In this document: positions 3,731 to 15,088 of the stretch, piece by piece | Position numbering within the stretch: the first letter of the stretch is position 1 | Layout of the letters: every line of letters starts with the position of its first letter | Assembly (NCBI RefSeq): GCF_029840635.1 | Contig: NZ_JAOCCU010000027.1 | Coordinates: 1-64,000, forward strand | Length of the DNA stretch: 64,000 nucleotides | Origin: Mitsuaria sp. GD03876 | Lineage (GTDB): Bacteria; Pseudomonadota; Gammaproteobacteria; Burkholderiales; Burkholderiaceae_C | Reading direction: 5' to 3' | Program-made: the position numbers and the translations under genes | The notes under the pieces: model-generated | What the model was told of the DNA's origin: nothing | The model's input: only the letters and a program-made list of their open reading frames with translations | Databases searched by the model: none

Positions 3731-3818
3731 GGCGTGATTTCTGCACGCGCGGAACTTATCCAACTCGGATACACGCCAGCAAAAGACCTGACACCGAGCC
3801 CCCCCGCCCCGCCGCCCC

Positions 3819-3995
3819 AGGCAGTCCGCAATCGGGAGAAGCCGGGGGCGCCGGTACCCCCGGAGCGAATTCCGAGTGTGCGGAGGAGATTGAGCGGCGG
3901 GGGTTCGTCCAGGCAGTCCGTGGTTGGGAGAAGCCGGAGGCGCCGGTACCCCCCGGAGCGAATTCCGAGCGTGCGGAGGAGATTGAGCGGAGGGG
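3819..3995. repeat. Two imperfect tandem copies of an ~85-bp intergenic repeat (period 92)
   Basis: Copy 1 (about 3819-3903) and copy 2 (about 3911-3995) share nearly every base, for example AGGCAGTCCG, GCGCCGGTACC, GGAGCGAATTCCGAG and TGCGGAGGAGATTGAGCGG. Copy 1 contains a CCGGGGG/CCCCCGG hairpin (3842-3863). The pair fills most of the 400-base gap between the DUF1800 and lyase-hydrolase genes, which otherwise holds no gene. It resembles a dispersed intergenic (REP-like) element; I see no further copy in this window. Confidence 0.75.
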
Positions 3996-4027
3996 GGTAC
4001 CGGCGTCACCGGCTTCGGGCGCAGGCC

Positions 4028-6490
4028 TCAACCGTTGCCGAGTTTCACCCGCACGACTTCGGCGAAGTACCGTGCCCCGACCGGCAGGATGGTGTCGTTG
4101 AAGTCGTAGCGCGCGTTGTGGAGCGGAACGCTGCCGGGTGAATCGGCGTCTCCGTTCCCGATGAACACGAACGCGCCGGGCAGGGTGGCGAGGAAGCGTC
4201 CGAAGTCTTCCGAGATCATCAAAGGTGGGGTGTCGGCGGTGACCTGGGAGGGTCCGACCACGCGGCGGGCGGCTTCGACGGCGGTTTCGACGCAGGCGGG
4301 CCAGTTCACGGTGGGCGCGAATTCGTGGGTGTAGTCGACCTGGCAGGTGGCGCCGTGGGCGTGGCAGATGCCGTCGCAGAGCGCGCGCATGCGGGTTTCG
4401 AGCAGGGCTTGGACGGCGGGGGTATCGCTGCGGGTATCGCCCTTGATGGTGACTTCGGTGGGGATGGCGTTGCGGATGCCGTCGGTGATGAATTCGGTGC
4501 AGGACACGACGGCGGACTGGCCCGGGTCGACGGAGCGCGCGACGATGGTCTGGAGGGCGAGGACGATTTCGGCGCCGATGACCAAGGGGTCGACGGCCAT
4601 GTGGGGGCGTGCCGCGTGGCCGCCGCGGCCGGTGATGCGGATGGTGAAGTTGTCTTCGCTGGCCATGATCCCGCCGGGGCGTGTCGCGATGTGGCCGGCG
4701 GGCATGCCGGGCAGGTTGTGGACGCCGTAGATCTCGTCCATCGGGAAGCGATCGAGGAGGCCGTCGGCGAGCATGGCCGCGGCGCCGCGGCCGTGTTCCT
4801 CGGCGGGTTGGAAGACGAAGCGCACGGTGCCGTCGAAGTCGCGGCGCCGGGTGAGCAGTTGGGCCGCGCCGAGCAGCATCGCCATGTGGCCGTCGTGGCC
4901 GCAACCGTGCATGCAGTTGGCGTTGAGCGAGACATGGGGACGGTCGGGGGCGGTCTCGGCCATCGCCAGGGCGTCCATGTCGGCGCGCAGGCCGATGACG
5001 CGGGGGCTTGAGCCGACGCGCAGGTTGGCGACGACGCCGGTGCCGCCGATGCCGCGGTGGACTTCGAGGCCCATCGCGCTCAGCAGTTCGGCGACGCGGT
5101 CGGAGGTGCGGCGTTCGTTGAAGCCGGTTTCGGGGAAGCGGTGGAAGTCGTGACGCCAGCGGACCCAGTCGCCGGTGAGCGCGGTTTCGTCGGCGGGGGC
5201 CTTCGCGGCAAGCCAGGCGTGCTGGCGCAGCAGCACGGCGTCGGCGGATTCGCCCACCAGTTCGCGGTAGACCGATCGCGCGGTCGCGCCTTCGGTGTTG
5301 ATGAGCAGCACCCGCGATGTCGCGTCGAGTGCCGCTGCCCGCCACAGCGCGGGGTCGGCGCGCAGGCGCTCCAGGGCAGCGAGGCCGGCGACGCCCGATT
5401 CGCCGGTGACGATCGGGATGTCGCGGTCGCTGCCGGCCGCCAGGCGGCGCATGGCCCGCACCGCGTCGTCGTCCTCGACGAGCAGGAAATCGTCGACGCT
5501 CGTGGCCAGGAAGCGCCACGCGAGCGGCGAGGTCTCGCCGCAGGCCAGGCCCGCCATCACCGAGTCGACCCGGCCGGTGGCCGCCGCGGGCCGGCCCTGG
5601 ATCGCGCTCTGCAGCAGGCAGTCGGCCTCGCGCGGCTCGACGACGATGAAGCGCGGACGCGACGCGCCCAGGCGCTCCCACAGCACGCTGACCAGGCCGG
5701 CGGCCAGGCCGCCGACCCCGCCTTGCAACAGGACGTGGGTAAAGCCGAAGCCCTCGTTCGATGGGTCATCCGATGGCCCAGTCGATGCGCCCTTCGATGC
5801 GCCGTTCGATGGGCCATCCGACGTGACAGTCCATGCGCGTCCCGCCTGCTCCAGCAACTCCGCCGCGATCGTCCCGTAGCCTTGCATCACGTCGCGCGGG
5901 ATGTCCTCGTAGTCGTCATACGAGGTGTCGGAGATCACCTGCCAGCCGTTGGCCGAAGCCAGCCGCGCCGCCTCCGCGACCGAGTCGTCGTAGTTGCCGG
6001 CGATGCGCACGATCTCCGCGCCGAGCGCGGCGATCGCGGACTCGCGCTCCGGGCTGACATGGGCGTGCAGCACGATCACGCAGCGGCAGCCGATGTCCCG
6101 CGCCGCCGCCGCGAGCCCGCGTCCGTGGTTCCCGTCGGTGGCGCTGATGACGGTCTCGTGCCGCAGGCGATCGGCATGGCGGCCGGCGAGCAGCTCGACC
6201 GGGTCCAGGCCCGGATGGCGCCGGAGCATCTCCCGCACCAGCGCCACCGGCGCGCCGAGCGCCTTGAAGCTGCCCAGCGACGAGCGCGTCGATTCGTCCT
6301 TGACGGCGAGCCGCGCGATGCCGAGGCGCTCCGCCAGGTCGGGCAGCTCCCGCAACGGCGTCGGGCCGGGGTTCACGCCGGGCCAGGCCGCGAGCCAGCG
6401 GCGGCTTTCCTGCGCACGGTCGATGTTCATGATCGCGCGGAGGTCGTCCGGGTACGGCGCGCGGACGGCGCGCGGATTGGCGAAGTGCAT
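4028..6490 (-). CDS. Fused diaminopropionate ammonia-lyase / M20D amidohydrolase
   Basis: An 820-residue two-domain protein. Residues 1 to about 415 are a full-length PLP enzyme of the diaminopropionate ammonia-lyase type (2,3-diaminopropionate to pyruvate plus ammonia): SFK76ALG is the PLP lysine, ATD119GNHGRG matches the second catalytic residue of E. coli YgeX, and LLQGGVGGLAAG binds phosphate. Residues about 436-820 are a complete M20D metal hydrolase with Cys530 and His532 in MHGCGHDGH, Glu564/565, His591 and His791. Both halves keep their catalytic residues. The fusion implies removal of an N-acyl group followed by lyase cleavage, but the substrate is inference. Residues about 225-246 are a repetitive insert. 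ATG at 6490 has AGGA upstream. It follows the carbamoylase gene by 53 bases. Confidence 0.88.
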   Translation of the reverse strand: MHFANPRAVRAPYPDDLRAIMNIDRAQESRRWLAAWPGVNPGPTPLRELPDLAERLGIARLAVKDESTRSSLGSFKALGAPVALVREMLRRHPGLDPVELLAGRHADRLRHETVISATDGNHGRGLAAAARDIGCRCVIVLHAHVSPERESAIAALGAEIVRIAGNYDDSVAEAARLASANGWQVISDTSYDDYEDIPRDVMQGYGTIAAELLEQAGRAWTVTSDGPSNGASKGASTGPSDDPSNEGFGFTHVLLQGGVGGLAAGLVSVLWERLGASRPRFIVVEPREADCLLQSAIQGRPAAATGRVDSVMAGLACGETSPLAWRFLATSVDDFLLVEDDDAVRAMRRLAAGSDRDIPIVTGESGVAGLAALERLRADPALWRAAALDATSRVLLINTEGATARSVYRELVGESADAVLLRQHAWLAAKAPADETALTGDWVRWRHDFHRFPETGFNERRTSDRVAELLSAMGLEVHRGIGGTGVVANLRVGSSPRVIGLRADMDALAMAETAPDRPHVSLNANCMHGCGHDGHMAMLLGAAQLLTRRRDFDGTVRFVFQPAEEHGRGAAAMLADGLLDRFPMDEIYGVHNLPGMPAGHIATRPGGIMASEDNFTIRITGRGGHAARPHMAVDPLVIGAEIVLALQTIVARSVDPGQSAVVSCTEFITDGIRNAIPTEVTIKGDTRSDTPAVQALLETRMRALCDGICHAHGATCQVDYTHEFAPTVNWPACVETAVEAARRVVGPSQVTADTPPLMISEDFGRFLATLPGAFVFIGNGDADSPGSVPLHNARYDFNDTILPVGARYFAEVVRVKLGNG
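5759..5830 (-). repeat. 12-bp minisatellite inside the lyase coding region
   Basis: Six units of 12 bases beginning CGATG (last unit CGACG) run head to tail. On the coding strand they encode tetrapeptides of the type (D/N/K/T)G(P/A)S, giving a flexible Ser/Gly insert at about residues 225-246 of the lyase domain. The unit length is a multiple of three, so copy changes keep the frame. Confidence 0.85.
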
Positions 6491-6543: not shown

Positions 6544-7797
6544 TCAGGGCAAGGCGAGCCGTCGCTGCACGACGTCGAGCAGCACCTCGGCGCCCTGGAT
6601 CAACTGCGCGTCATCGGTGTGCTCGCGGGGGTTGTGGCTGACGCCGCCGCGGCTGGGCACGAAGATCATGGCCGCGGGCGCGACGCGGGCGATCATCTGC
6701 GCGTCGTGGCCGGCGCCCGAGGTCATCCGGCGATGGCTCAGGCCGCGACGCGTCGCGGCGGCCTCGATCTCGTCGACCAGCGACGCGTCGAAGCTCACCG
6801 GCTCGAACCGGGCGAGGCGCTCGGTCGCGATCGACACGCCTTCGCGTGTCGCGATCGCCGCGAGGAATTCCGCCAGCCGCTGCTCCGCCTCGCGCAGGCG
6901 ATGCTCGTCGGGATCGCGCAGATCCACGGTGAACACGGCCTTGCGCGGAATCACGTTGATCAGGTCCGGCTCCAGCCGCAGGGAACCGGTCGTCGCGAGC
7001 GTCGTGTCCGGCGCGGCGGCGACGACCTGCTCGCGCAGGAACGCCATCACCGCCGCGGCCACGTAACCCGCGTCGTGGCGCAATCGCGTCGGCGTCGTGC
7101 CCGCGTGATTCGCGGTGCCGGTCACGGTGATCCGCTGCCAGGAAATGCCTTGCAGGCTCTCGACGACGCCGATATCCAGGTCCTCGGCCTCGAGCACCGG
7201 TCCCTGCTCGATGTGGAGCTCCAGGTACTCGGCGGGCACGATCTCGCCGGGCGTGAGGTCGCCGGCGTAGCCGATGCGCTCGAGCTCGTCGCCCAGCCGC
7301 GTGCCGTCGATGCCGACGGCATCGAGCGCCTCGTCCAGCGACAGCCCGCCCGCATGCACCAGCGAGCCCATCATGTCGGGCTGGTAGCGGACGCCCTCCT
7401 CGTTCGTGAACGCGGCGACGACGATCGAGCGCTCCGGCAACCGCCCCGCGTCGCGATAGGCCCGCGCGACGGCGAGTCCGGCCAGCACGCCGTAGCAGCC
7501 ATCGAGCGCACCGGCGTTGCGCACGGTGTCGATGTGCGAGCCGATCATCAGCGGCCGTCGCCGTCCTGCCTCGGTCGCCGCCGGCAGGATGCCGAAGACG
7601 TTGCCGATGCGGTCGATCCGCAATTCAAGATCCAGCGCCGAGATCCACTGCACCAACTGGTCGCGACCGGCCCGGTCGGCGTCAGTCAGCGCGATGCGGG
7701 TACGCCCACCGGGCGTTGGCTCCGCGCCGATCTCGCCCAACTCGCGGAGCTGCCGCAGCAGCGTCGGGGCGTTCAGGCTCAGCGGGGACGAGGTCAT
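6544..7797 (-). CDS. M20 family N-carbamoyl-L-amino acid hydrolase / allantoate amidohydrolase
   Basis: A 417-residue zinc-dependent amidase of the hydantoinase/carbamoylase family. Metal and catalytic positions are visible: GSH88ID90T, LD99G, NE133E134G, ELHIEQGP and the C-terminal SHNPREH. Members release ammonia and CO2 from N-carbamoyl amino acids or ureidoglycolate precursors; which substrate applies here cannot be read from the sequence. ATG at 7797 is preferred over the in-frame TTG at 7809, because GGAG lies about 8 bases before the ATG. It is the first gene of an apparent operon with the fused lyase-hydrolase and is divergent from an Lrp-type regulator, so the pathway is probably induced by an amino acid or derivative. 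Confidence 0.88.
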   Translation of the reverse strand: MTSSPLSLNAPTLLRQLRELGEIGAEPTPGGRTRIALTDADRAGRDQLVQWISALDLELRIDRIGNVFGILPAATEAGRRRPLMIGSHIDTVRNAGALDGCYGVLAGLAVARAYRDAGRLPERSIVVAAFTNEEGVRYQPDMMGSLVHAGGLSLDEALDAVGIDGTRLGDELERIGYAGDLTPGEIVPAEYLELHIEQGPVLEAEDLDIGVVESLQGISWQRITVTGTANHAGTTPTRLRHDAGYVAAAVMAFLREQVVAAAPDTTLATTGSLRLEPDLINVIPRKAVFTVDLRDPDEHRLREAEQRLAEFLAAIATREGVSIATERLARFEPVSFDASLVDEIEAAATRRGLSHRRMTSGAGHDAQMIARVAPAAMIFVPSRGGVSHNPREHTDDAQLIQGAEVLLDVVQRRLALP

Positions 7798-7842
7798 CGG
7801 GATCTCCAACCAGTCGGGGTGGAGAAATAATATTCAGCGCCT

Positions 7843-7877
7843 CAGCAAACGGATTCGAATCTCCTGGCCGTTTGCTG
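7843..7877. promoter_or_regulatory. Palindromic operator between the carbamoylase operon and the Lrp gene
   Basis: Perfect 10-base arms CAGCAAACGG (7843-7852) and CCGTTTGCTG (7868-7877) surround a small ATTCGAAT palindrome. An AT-rich tract (AAATAATATT, 7825-7834) lies beside it in otherwise GC-rich DNA. Position between two divergent starts suggests control of both by the adjacent Lrp protein. Confidence 0.7.
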
Positions 7878-7918
7878 AACGTTATTCACCTCGACGCCGC
7901 TGGCCCGGCGATGCCTTC

Positions 7919-8392
7919 ATGCCCGCTTCGCTCGACGGCTACGACCGCGTCCTGCTCGACGCCCTCCAGGAAGACGCCCGCACGCCTCAAAGCGAACTGG
8001 GGCTCCGCGCGAATCTCTCCACCGCCGCGGTGAACCGCCGGCTCAAGCTGCTGTCGGCGGACGGTGTCGTCGAGCGCGTCACCGCGCAGCTCAACCCGAA
8101 AGCGCTGGGCTACGACCTCACCATCGTCGTCGAGGTCAAGGTCGAGAACGAACGCGCCGACCTGCTCGACGCCATGCAGCGCGCCTTCACCGCCTGCCCG
8201 CAGGTGCAGCAGTGCTACTACGTCGCCGGAGACTGCGACTTCGTGCTGATCTTCCTGGTGCGGGACATGGAACAGTACGTCGCGCTCACGCGCGAGCTGT
8301 TCTTCGAGAGCAACAACGTCAAGAGCTTCAAGACGCTGGTGGTGATGAACCGGGTCAAGACCGGCAGCAGCGTGCCGGTCGACCCCGGTTGA
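7919..8392 (+). CDS. Lrp/AsnC family transcriptional regulator
   Basis: A 157-residue regulator with the standard two parts: an N-terminal helix-turn-helix (about 8-60, with LLDALQEDARTPQSELG and LSTAAVNRRLKLL) and a C-terminal ligand-binding RAM/ACT-like domain (about 65-145, with VQQCYYVAGDCDFVLIF). Lrp proteins form octamers or dimers and respond to amino acids. It is divergent from the carbamoylase/lyase operon and the palindrome at 7843-7877 lies between, so it is the likely local regulator. ATG at 7919 begins at the family's usual distance before the helix-turn-helix; an ATG at 7911 is out of frame. It ends four bases before the convergent CoA-transferase gene. Confidence 0.92.
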   Translation: MPASLDGYDRVLLDALQEDARTPQSELGLRANLSTAAVNRRLKLLSADGVVERVTAQLNPKALGYDLTIVVEVKVENERADLLDAMQRAFTACPQVQQCYYVAGDCDFVLIFLVRDMEQYVALTRELFFESNNVKSFKTLVVMNRVKTGSSVPVDPG

Positions 8393-13631: not shown

Positions 13632-14939
13632 CTAGCGCAAGCCGGCGGGCGCGATCAGCGAGGCGGCCGGGACCGCGTTCGTCGCGGGCGCGGCGGCATT
13701 GGGATCGGGCAGGCGCACGGGGCGCACATCCAATCTCACATCGAGCAGCGTGACGTCCCTGGCATCGCCGTCGGCATCGATCCAGCCCTGCGTGCCCGCG
13801 CCGCGATAAAGACGGAAGACGAAACCGGTGCGGTCGCGATCGGCAGTGGCGCCCGGGCGGATGCGCGCGGCCATCGCGCGGACCTCGGCGGCGGGCGAGC
13901 TCAGCAGCTCGGTCATCGCCTGCACGATGCGGTTGTCGCCCAGGATGTCCGGCTGGAAGGTGTCCACCGGGCCGCGCGGCAACGGCGCGCCCTGCGTGGA
14001 GGCGCGCATCGCCACCGCCGGACTGGCCGCCGTCTTGCGCGCGGCCGGCTGCGTGACGCCGGACGCGAGGTCGTGGCGGTCGCCGCTGTCCAGGTAGCTC
14101 AGCCGCGCGCCGCGCAGGTTGAACATGCCCAGCGCCGGATCGCTGCGCGCGTCGCGCAGGTCCACCAGCAGCGCGCCGCGTCCGCCGATGATGTCGACCC
14201 GGTCGCCATGGATGACGGCGGCGCTGTTCTCCTCGACGCCCAGCCCCAGCCGATAACCCTTGGCCATCATCAGCGGCAGCATCCGGCCGATGCGGCCGCG
14301 CTTGAGGAAGTGCTGGTCGACGAACAAGCCGCCGCCGACGAAACCCAGGCCCTGGTCGATCTCGTGGCCGTCGCGCATCGTGCCGCGCAGGACGTCCATG
14401 ACATTGAGCGCGTCGCGGAACATCACGCGGCTCATGATGGCCGCGCCGGCGCTGGTGCCGGCGACGACGCCGCCACGGCGGTAGACGTCCCAGATCGCGT
14501 CGAGCATCTCGGTGCGCCGGCCGCCGGGCTGCAGCGTGTCGACGATGAAGCCCTGCGCGCCGCCGGAGAAGAAGACCGCGTTGGACGCGCGGACCTTGGC
14601 GATCAGCTCGGGGTCATGGAGGTTGCGCTGCAGGTCGGCGCCCTCGAGGCGCGGCGCGACGGGGATGTGCTCGGCCTGCGCGCCATGCTTCTTCAGCACG
14701 TCGACGATCAGCTTGGCGGAGAGCTCGGGATTGGCCGCGGCGGTGGCCAGCACCGCGAAGCGCGCCTGGCCGGCGCCGCCGGCCTCGTCGACGATGCGCT
14801 GCCAGACGGCGTCGTTGTCCATGCGCAGCGCGCCGCCGATGACGATGGCGGTCTGCGCCGACGCGACACCGGCGCCCAGCAGCGCCATCGCCCCCAGGAG
14901 GGCCCGGATCCGGATCGAGAGGGAACGGAAGGCATCCAT
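13632..14939 (-). CDS. Secreted cyanophycinase-like S51 peptidase
   Basis: A 435-residue serine exopeptidase of family S51. An N-terminal signal peptide (about 1-28, ending ASA-QT) predicts export. The nucleophile is in GTS163AGAAIMSR, preceded by FFSGGAQGF, and the cyanophycinase signature FVDQHFLKRGRIGR follows at about 206-219; GLGVEENSAAV is also typical. Cyanophycinases cut the cyanobacterial reserve polymer multi-L-arginyl-poly-L-aspartate into dipeptides; exported forms let heterotrophs feed on it. A C-terminal part of about 120 residues beyond the peptidase core is of unknown role. ATG at 14939 is chosen because the signal peptide starts there. Confidence 0.85.
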   Translation of the reverse strand: MDAFRSLSIRIRALLGAMALLGAGVASAQTAIVIGGALRMDNDAVWQRIVDEAGGAGQARFAVLATAAANPELSAKLIVDVLKKHGAQAEHIPVAPRLEGADLQRNLHDPELIAKVRASNAVFFSGGAQGFIVDTLQPGGRRTEMLDAIWDVYRRGGVVAGTSAGAAIMSRVMFRDALNVMDVLRGTMRDGHEIDQGLGFVGGGLFVDQHFLKRGRIGRMLPLMMAKGYRLGLGVEENSAAVIHGDRVDIIGGRGALLVDLRDARSDPALGMFNLRGARLSYLDSGDRHDLASGVTQPAARKTAASPAVAMRASTQGAPLPRGPVDTFQPDILGDNRIVQAMTELLSSPAAEVRAMAARIRPGATADRDRTGFVFRLYRGAGTQGWIDADGDARDVTLLDVRLDVRPVRLPDPNAAAPATNAVPAASLIAPAGLR

Positions 14940-15022
14940 GCGCCCATCTTGCCCATCGAGCGGCGGATGGGAAGTGGGAAGCGCCTTCAACCAGGGGGTG
15001 GAAAGGGAAGATGCCACGCCAT

Positions 15023-15088
15023 CCCCCGGCGTCGCCGGGGGGCTCGCGTGACGCACCGGCCGTCACGAACGCGGCGAATCCGCGTTCG
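15023..15088. other. Two hairpins downstream of the short-chain dehydrogenase gene
   Basis: CCCCCGGCG/CGCCGGGGG around one T (15023-15041) and CGAACGCGG/CCGCGTTCG with a 5-base loop (15066-15088). They lie between the dehydrogenase stop (15113) and the cyanophycinase start (14939). Neither has a T run, so a terminator role is uncertain. Confidence 0.4.

Follow-up and report, generated by a model that had tools for sequence, protein, structure and literature searches.

Background

The closest described counterpart of the system reported here is found in Escherichia coli, where the genes of the lyase YgeX (PDB 4d9g) and of the M20-fold hydrolase YgeY are neighbours. The two enzymes convert albizziine (2-amino-3-ureidopropionate) to pyruvate: according to the available part of PMC12507026, YgeY removes the ureido group of albizziine during the reductive breakdown of urate, freeing 2,3-diaminopropionate (DAP) for YgeX. 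The logic of YgeX, YgeY and YgeW is also treated in a commentary on the reductive urate pathway (PMC12990295, available in part). This report concerns a gene of Mitsuaria sp. GD03876, located in a window of 64,000 nucleotides (the whole stretch of DNA analyzed), in which a diaminopropionate ammonia-lyase (DAPAL) and an M20D amidohydrolase are joined in a single chain. With moderate confidence, the product is proposed to be a bifunctional enzyme, which acts together with its operon on N-substituted DAP and arose by merger of a DAPAL with an M20D gene.

As in E. coli, a DAP lyase gene adjoins in Mitsuaria a gene for an M20-fold hydrolase, and the proposal shares the same division of labour, where the hydrolase uncaps and the lyase cleaves. 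YgeX and YgeY are, however, separate genes, unlike the Mitsuaria fusion, and the E. coli cluster adds ygeW, hyuA, ygfK, ssnA and xdhD, which the Mitsuaria operon does not include. The parallel with YgeX and a separate M20 neighbour had been drawn in an earlier note on this DNA: it is real, but YgeY belongs to another M20 subfamily than M20D. When compared by BLAST, YgeY and the M20D half share no more similarity than expected by chance (E 5.6 and 8.3), and YgeY gives nothing above chance against CARB, the hydantoinase/carbamoylase-family amidase encoded next to the fused gene.

Known counterparts of the M20D half are the M20D aminoacylases YxeP (1ysj) and a plant indoleacetic acid (IAA)-amino acid hydrolase homologue (1xmb), at about 209 bits each; the N-alpha-acyl-glutamine aminoacylase 6slf and DoeB2 also belong to the same M20D family. 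The Mitsuaria half differs from these enzymes in being fused to a lyase and in scoring under the DoeB2 and CpsA equivalog cut-offs. CARB, in turn, matches structures of hydantoinase/carbamoylase-family amidases, namely L-carbamoylase (3n5f), beta-alanine synthase and allantoate amidohydrolase.

Rhizobial DAPAL genes are tabulated in the available parts of PMC4417242, two rows above a hippurate hydrolase, and of PMC8407117, neither of which includes a test of function; that of PMC9269122 merely cites an albizziine paper. Among the matches listed by the literature searches, which mostly do not cover subscription literature, no relevant paper on a DAPAL-M20D fusion was found.

The fused gene and its junction

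The gene lies at 4028-6490 on the minus strand and is a single uninterrupted frame of 820 amino acids in the open reading frame check. Its coordinates had been correctly given in the earlier note, where the strand was unstated. On the basis of the frame, Pfam and NCBIfam matches and alignments, three parts may be recognized, all on the minus strand: a pyridoxal phosphate-dependent lyase half of the DAPAL family (about residues 1-422; 5225-6490), a linker, delimited by codon composition and comparison with a relative (about residues 423-438; 5177-5224), and an M20D amidohydrolase half (about residues 439-820; 4028-5176). The Pfam domain PALP covers residues 41-380 with 197.7 bits (cut-off 35), and Peptidase_M20 residues 501-813 with 139.6 bits (cut-off 24.6); the M20_dimer stretch is found at residues 615-697.

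The relative used for comparison, locus L007, contains CARB, DAPAL and M20D in matching order, as separate genes. The stretch matching the linker holds there a TAG stop and the ATG of M20D, in the same frame: loss of both would generate the Mitsuaria single chain. On the lyase tree, L007 is the sister of the Mitsuaria lyase (support 99/84), while locus L121 is slightly closer by tree path and identity; on the CARB tree, Mitsuaria CARB groups with L121, L118 and L123, with weak support. Differences from L007 at codon positions 1/2/3 are 76/61/164 for the lyase, 66/43/143 for M20D and 75/61/165 for CARB, an excess at third positions which is the pattern expected under purifying constraint for all three genes.

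That the fusion is an artefact of assembly or sequencing, joining two separate genes, appears highly improbable. It has been seen in one genome only, in a 94-contig assembly judged from its assembled sequence; an artefact, however, would need to have erased two signals, the stop codon and the start of the downstream gene. Moreover, the linker aligns with the L007 junction and its third positions are of coding type, G or C being found in 25 of 28 codons at residues 413-440, a share similar to that of the lyase half (377 of 412) and of the M20 half (341 of 380). Between residues 400 and 472 the fused frame contains neither ATG nor TTG; GTG codons at residues 412 and 419 fall inside the tail of the lyase, and inspection by eye gave no obvious ribosome site for them. 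Judged by frame, codon usage and alignment, the fusion is thus confirmed as real and no frameshift is seen. Of the findings that the earlier note had named as contrary to it, a frameshift between the halves was looked for and not seen, nor was the loss of one domain in relatives, as judged by its residues.

A low-complexity insert, not present in L007, is located in the lyase half (about residues 218-247; 5750-5839, minus strand). Its third-position GC, 20 of 30, is below that of the rest of the gene, and it contains a 12-bp tandem repeat in 2.8 copies (5782-5815). The repeat was rejected as a genome-wide element: elsewhere in the genome a single site, with 3 mismatches, is found.

Family membership and catalytic residues

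The lyase half passes the NCBIfam model NF006058, diaminopropionate ammonia-lyase, with 459.6 bits (cut-off 276). The M20D half passes the amidohydrolase model TIGR01891 (340 bits; cut-off 153.75) and is below both the CpsA equivalog cut-off (500) and that of the DoeB2 N2-acetyl-diaminobutanoate deacetylase model NF038260 (310 bits; cut-off 550). CARB passes TIGR01879 (366 bits; cut-off 204) and no equivalog among 25 of 26 matches listed (AllC, 253 of 598; ErtE, 336 of 520), so that its substrate is not set by family. No second close DAPAL was found in the Mitsuaria genome; the remaining M20D-like proteins share 45% and 43% identity with the M20D half.

Lys76, Asp119 and Asp188 of the lyase half align with Lys77, Asp120 and Asp189 of E. 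coli DAPAL (structure 4d9g). Asp189 has a catalytic role in the E. coli enzyme. In the alignment, Lys76 and Asp188 are kept in all 65 lyase rows and Asp119 in 63, the exceptions being loci L139 and L140, which feature Ala. The residues corresponding to Lys76 and Asp119 are described as likely catalytic in the available part of PMC4000059. In the M20D half, Cys530, His532, Glu565 and His591 are kept in all 76 rows and His791 in 75, the remaining one (L130) having a gap in an early-ending row. Cys-His-Glu-His-His is the metal and catalytic set of M20D enzymes. Both halves are intact, as first described, with Glu565 and Asp188 now added to the list of residues.

Operon organization and an alternative fusion

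CARB, of M20 fold, is located directly upstream of the fused gene (6544-7809, minus strand); its start, as called, is a TTG, and an ATG is present at 7797. A Lrp/AsnC-family regulator, recognized by Pfam and NCBIfam, is divergent from both (7916-8392, plus strand). The gene architecture of 86 loci was scored, including 6 repeats. Neighbour counts are biased for loci found by pattern search, since these patterns were derived from the lyase and M20D halves alike; the count over genomes of the same family is fairer.

Separate CARB, DAPAL and M20D genes, in this order and with a divergent Lrp gene, are found in seven distinct loci (L007, L019, L022, L118, L121, L123, L132). The carbamoylase and Lrp neighbours, whose conservation the earlier note had suggested checking, are kept in many relatives. 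In L081, from a Pseudomonas plasmid, a permease separates DAPAL from M20D, while in L075 and four rhizobial plasmid loci (L156-L158, L165) CARB follows M20D.

Seventeen further distinct loci feature a different arrangement, where M20D is followed by a DAPAL-CARB fusion (L008, L009, L012-L015, L017, L031, L111, L112, L114, L116, L117, L119, L120, L122, L125); the fused chain is found at 7187-9622 in L008, and is 811 amino acids long in L014. These fusions, from Variovorax, Ideonella, Pelomonas, Rubrivivax and others, share with Mitsuaria the operon partners and a homologous N-terminal lyase, about 58-64% identical, but differ in that CARB occupies the C-terminal position, M20D being encoded by a gene of its own upstream. 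On the lyase tree the 17 loci fall on one side of a branch separating them from the other labelled rows (99/97), a side that also includes unlabelled rows without CARB; on the CARB tree they form a clade (100/100). This is consistent with a single origin of the DAPAL-CARB fusion. Other scored loci contain M20D and DAPAL without CARB.

Besides Mitsuaria, 26 genomes of the family matched closely; a DAPAL-family gene is beside M20D in 24 of these, and CARB is present in 14, fused to DAPAL in 10 and separate in 4. As judged from these comparisons, the Mitsuaria fusion is a derived form of a wider operon of Lrp, CARB, DAPAL and M20D genes.

Both the DAPAL-M20D and the DAPAL-CARB chains begin with the lyase. 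Attachment of a His6 tag reportedly lowers DAPAL activity (PMC4000059, available in part), and our reading of the SUMO-eDAL construct described there would make the N-terminus the tag-sensitive end.

Distribution of the DAPAL-M20D fusion

Whole-genome searches were performed with the fused protein as query; the samples overlap, and counts of matching genomes include Mitsuaria itself. For the family, order, class and phylum searches the two best candidates per genome were scored, and a weak second copy could be missed. No other single-frame DAPAL-M20D gene was found in the samples of the family (399 genomes, 27 matching at E 1e-115), order (399 genomes, 9 matching), class (369 genomes, 6 matching), phylum (398 genomes, 22 matching at E 1e-110) or genus (16 genomes, the only match being the Mitsuaria genome), nor among the 60 genomes of nearest relatives. 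A DAPAL-M20D chain is also absent from all 48 loci obtained by pattern search of genome contigs, whose frames were checked, and from all 24 framed plasmid loci, among the matches listed (40 of 700 matching plasmid records); the framed loci include 21 of the 35 listed records in which 80% or more of the query matches at a single place. The architecture, for which a search in other genomes had been proposed, is therefore not conserved: among the samples searched it is seen in the Mitsuaria genome only, as a one-off, probably bifunctional variant of an uncharacterised three-enzyme module.

The M20D lineage and its lyase neighbours

Where M20D is at least 64% identical to the Mitsuaria half, a DAPAL gene is found on the same strand within 1.3 kb in 42 of 47 distinct loci, a count partly biased, because for many loci the search had used patterns of the two halves. 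In the 53-64% identity class this holds for 9 of 19 loci. By comparison, DAPAL is found in none of 21 control loci of distant M20D paralogues (43-50% identical), whose flanks are about 1.5 kb or less; one weak CARB match is present among them (L066, 26.5% identical, E 8e-7).

In Bacillota and in one metagenome-assembled genome of Neisseriaceae, an M20D homologue (55-64% identical) adjoins a DAPAL scoring over the TIGR03528 equivalog cut-off of 532 bits: 655 in L024, 625 in L023, 554 in L040 and 551.5 in L025. Three such canonical DAPALs, compared by BLAST with YgeX, are 50-53% identical to it, and YgeX falls inside their group on the lyase tree (100/100). CARB homologues also occur alongside both DAPAL subfamilies (L024 and L040 for the canonical one). 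The presence of one M20D lineage beside two DAPAL subfamilies is the best reason to suppose that DAP is cleaved by the divergent lyase too, and is supplied to it by M20D.

Proposed function

According to the proposal, stop and start between adjoining DAPAL and M20D genes of a Lrp-flanked catabolic operon were lost, giving one chain. The M20D half and, separately, CARB would take N-acyl or N-carbamoyl groups off N-substituted DAP; the lyase half would then turn the freed DAP into pyruvate and two ammonia. The Lrp protein may control the operon, and tethering of the two activities might be of benefit. Two alternative fusions of one lyase, together with one M20D lineage accompanying two DAPAL subfamilies, point to a module that first frees and then cleaves DAP. 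This order of events, already suggested by the earlier note, is strengthened by the DAPAL-CARB fusion and by M20D beside canonical DAPALs, while the natural substrate is given here as a prediction. The N-acylated or oxalylated substrates suggested at the same time are not singled out: N-carbamoyl forms appear at least as likely, because a carbamoylase is part of the operon. Several loci also encode amino-acid carriers, namely a sodium:alanine symporter (L030, between CARB and M20D), amino acid permeases (L024, L026, L074) and a serine/threonine-carrier-like protein (L025).

A number of results weigh against this proposal. No assay of any operon member was found in the literature searched. In 12 of the 26 loci from the family, one of which (L130) is at a contig start, no CARB was found. 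DAPAL is not within 1.3 kb of M20D in 5 of the 47 loci of the closest class (L010, L126, L128, L026, L081), L026 and L081 having one farther away; a same-strand DAPAL is similarly missing in 10 of 19 loci of the 53-64% class, where it is 1.5 kb from M20D in L039, and in 5 of 12 loci of the 46-53% class. Several of the M20D loci without DAPAL are on short contigs. The DAPAL-M20D fusion, having been seen once, is not itself evidence of selection for tethering. In L139 (8206-9159) and L140 (8428-9381), the lyase-like protein beside M20D is the one with Ala at the Asp119 position; that of L139 narrowly misses the NF006058 cut-off, with 267.6 of 276 bits, and the pair forms a very long branch of the lyase tree. 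These two proteins possibly catalyze another reaction.

Finally, the lyase half is below the stricter equivalog TIGR03528 (276 bits; cut-off 532) and below TIGR01747 (250 bits; cut-off 274), and is 37% identical to YgeX by BLAST, so its substrate may differ. It could act on another beta-substituted alanine, such as a derivative of cysteine, serine or a heterocyclic alanine, with CARB and M20D taking off its N-carbamoyl or N-acyl groups; YxeP, an N-acetyl-cysteine-type deacetylase, is one of the nearest relatives of the M20 half with a solved structure. Such a substrate seems unlikely, as the lyase scores above the NF006058 cut-off and retains the three residues (Lys, Asp and Asp) of E. coli DAPAL, and as the homologous M20D of Bacillota adjoins canonical DAPALs.

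A route similar to that of urate may also be envisaged, where CARB and M20D strip both carbamoyls of 2,3-diureidopropionate and the lyase finishes the breakdown. These parts are played by YgeW/UacY and YgeY in the reductive urate pathway (available parts of PMC12507026 and PMC12990295), and a carbamoylase-family gene is included in the operon. In addition, a uraH gene, for the hydroxyisourate hydrolase of the oxidative urate route, is located about 3.7 kb from DAPAL in the Aliiroseovarius locus L079 (12485-12850), and a hydantoinase B/oxoprolinase gene at the edge of L150. The Mitsuaria genome, however, gives at best 198.5 bits for SsnA (TIGR03314; cut-off 455.5) and 85 bits for D-hydantoinase (cut-off 393). 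In the corresponding controls on 14 genomes, SsnA matches were found in 8, E. coli among them, and exceeded the cut-off in 1; D-hydantoinase matches were found in 12 and exceeded it in 2. No feature named SsnA, YgfK or XdhD is present in the annotated plasmid stretches, whose gene tables are incomplete, nor do these proteins occur among 20 scanned neighbour proteins. The substrate-named solved relatives of the M20D half, moreover, are hydrolases of amino-acid conjugates or N-acyl compounds, not of ureido compounds. This ureide route is accordingly regarded as quite unlikely; for the Mitsuaria genome, it was set aside as main explanation because of the SsnA and D-hydantoinase scores.

Returning to N-substituted DAP, a broader view may tentatively be advanced: CARB, DAPAL and M20D would form an uncharacterised, widely shared route, by which N-capped DAPs (carbamoyl, that is albizziine, acetyl and oxalyl) reach one lyase, joined separately to each of its feeder hydrolases. 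Two plasmid loci come from bacteria associated with Mimosa: L074, from Paraburkholderia sabiae, a root-nodule isolate, and L150, on plasmid pSYMBR3459 of P. phenoliruptrix, isolated from Mimosa flocculosa. As part of the same tentative view, amino acids of the host plant could serve such bacteria as food. In Acacia, albizziine occurs together with amino-acetylaminopropionic acid in more than 60 species, and other species contain oxalylaminopropionic acid and free diaminopropionic acid (available part of the review PMC9658407). A route in which a carbamoyl hydrolase and an acyl hydrolase both supply a single DAP lyase would match this set of compounds.

If correct, the proposal would define a module for amino-acid degradation distinct from the anaerobic urate pathway, and would offer a direct prediction, testable by assay, for two families of hydrolases whose substrates cannot be read from sequence alone. 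It could also explain the use of legume non-protein amino acids, some of which are neurotoxic to animals, by soil and plant-associated bacteria. The two alternative fusions would be natural evidence of which enzymes work together. While the fusion alone is modest news, a module with alternative fusions and two DAPAL subfamilies would be a more useful finding.

Other observations

M20D relatives are also found next to genes of other kinds. In L033 (7158-8627) and L037 (6672-8135), they are followed by an open frame of 487-489 amino acids; that of L033 matches PALP only weakly (32.9 bits, below the cut-off of 35) and matches no NCBIfam model at 1e-20. In L032, a dimethylargininase-like gene (7225-8043; 397.6 bits, cut-off 450) adjoins an M20D relative.

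Lyase relatives are located near a gamma-glutamyltransferase gene in L080 (9001-13424), from a Klebsiella plasmid, and in L151, from a Rhodoferax plasmid, where the lyase is in pieces, in more than one frame. No M20D match is present in these two stretches; the context may perhaps indicate a gamma-glutamyl form of the substrate.

In the Mitsuaria window itself, a 93-bp unit is repeated in 1.9 copies at 3817-3996, just downstream of the fused gene, and a minus-strand open frame at 13632-15056 presumably encodes a protein resembling cyanophycinase, a likeness noticed by eye.

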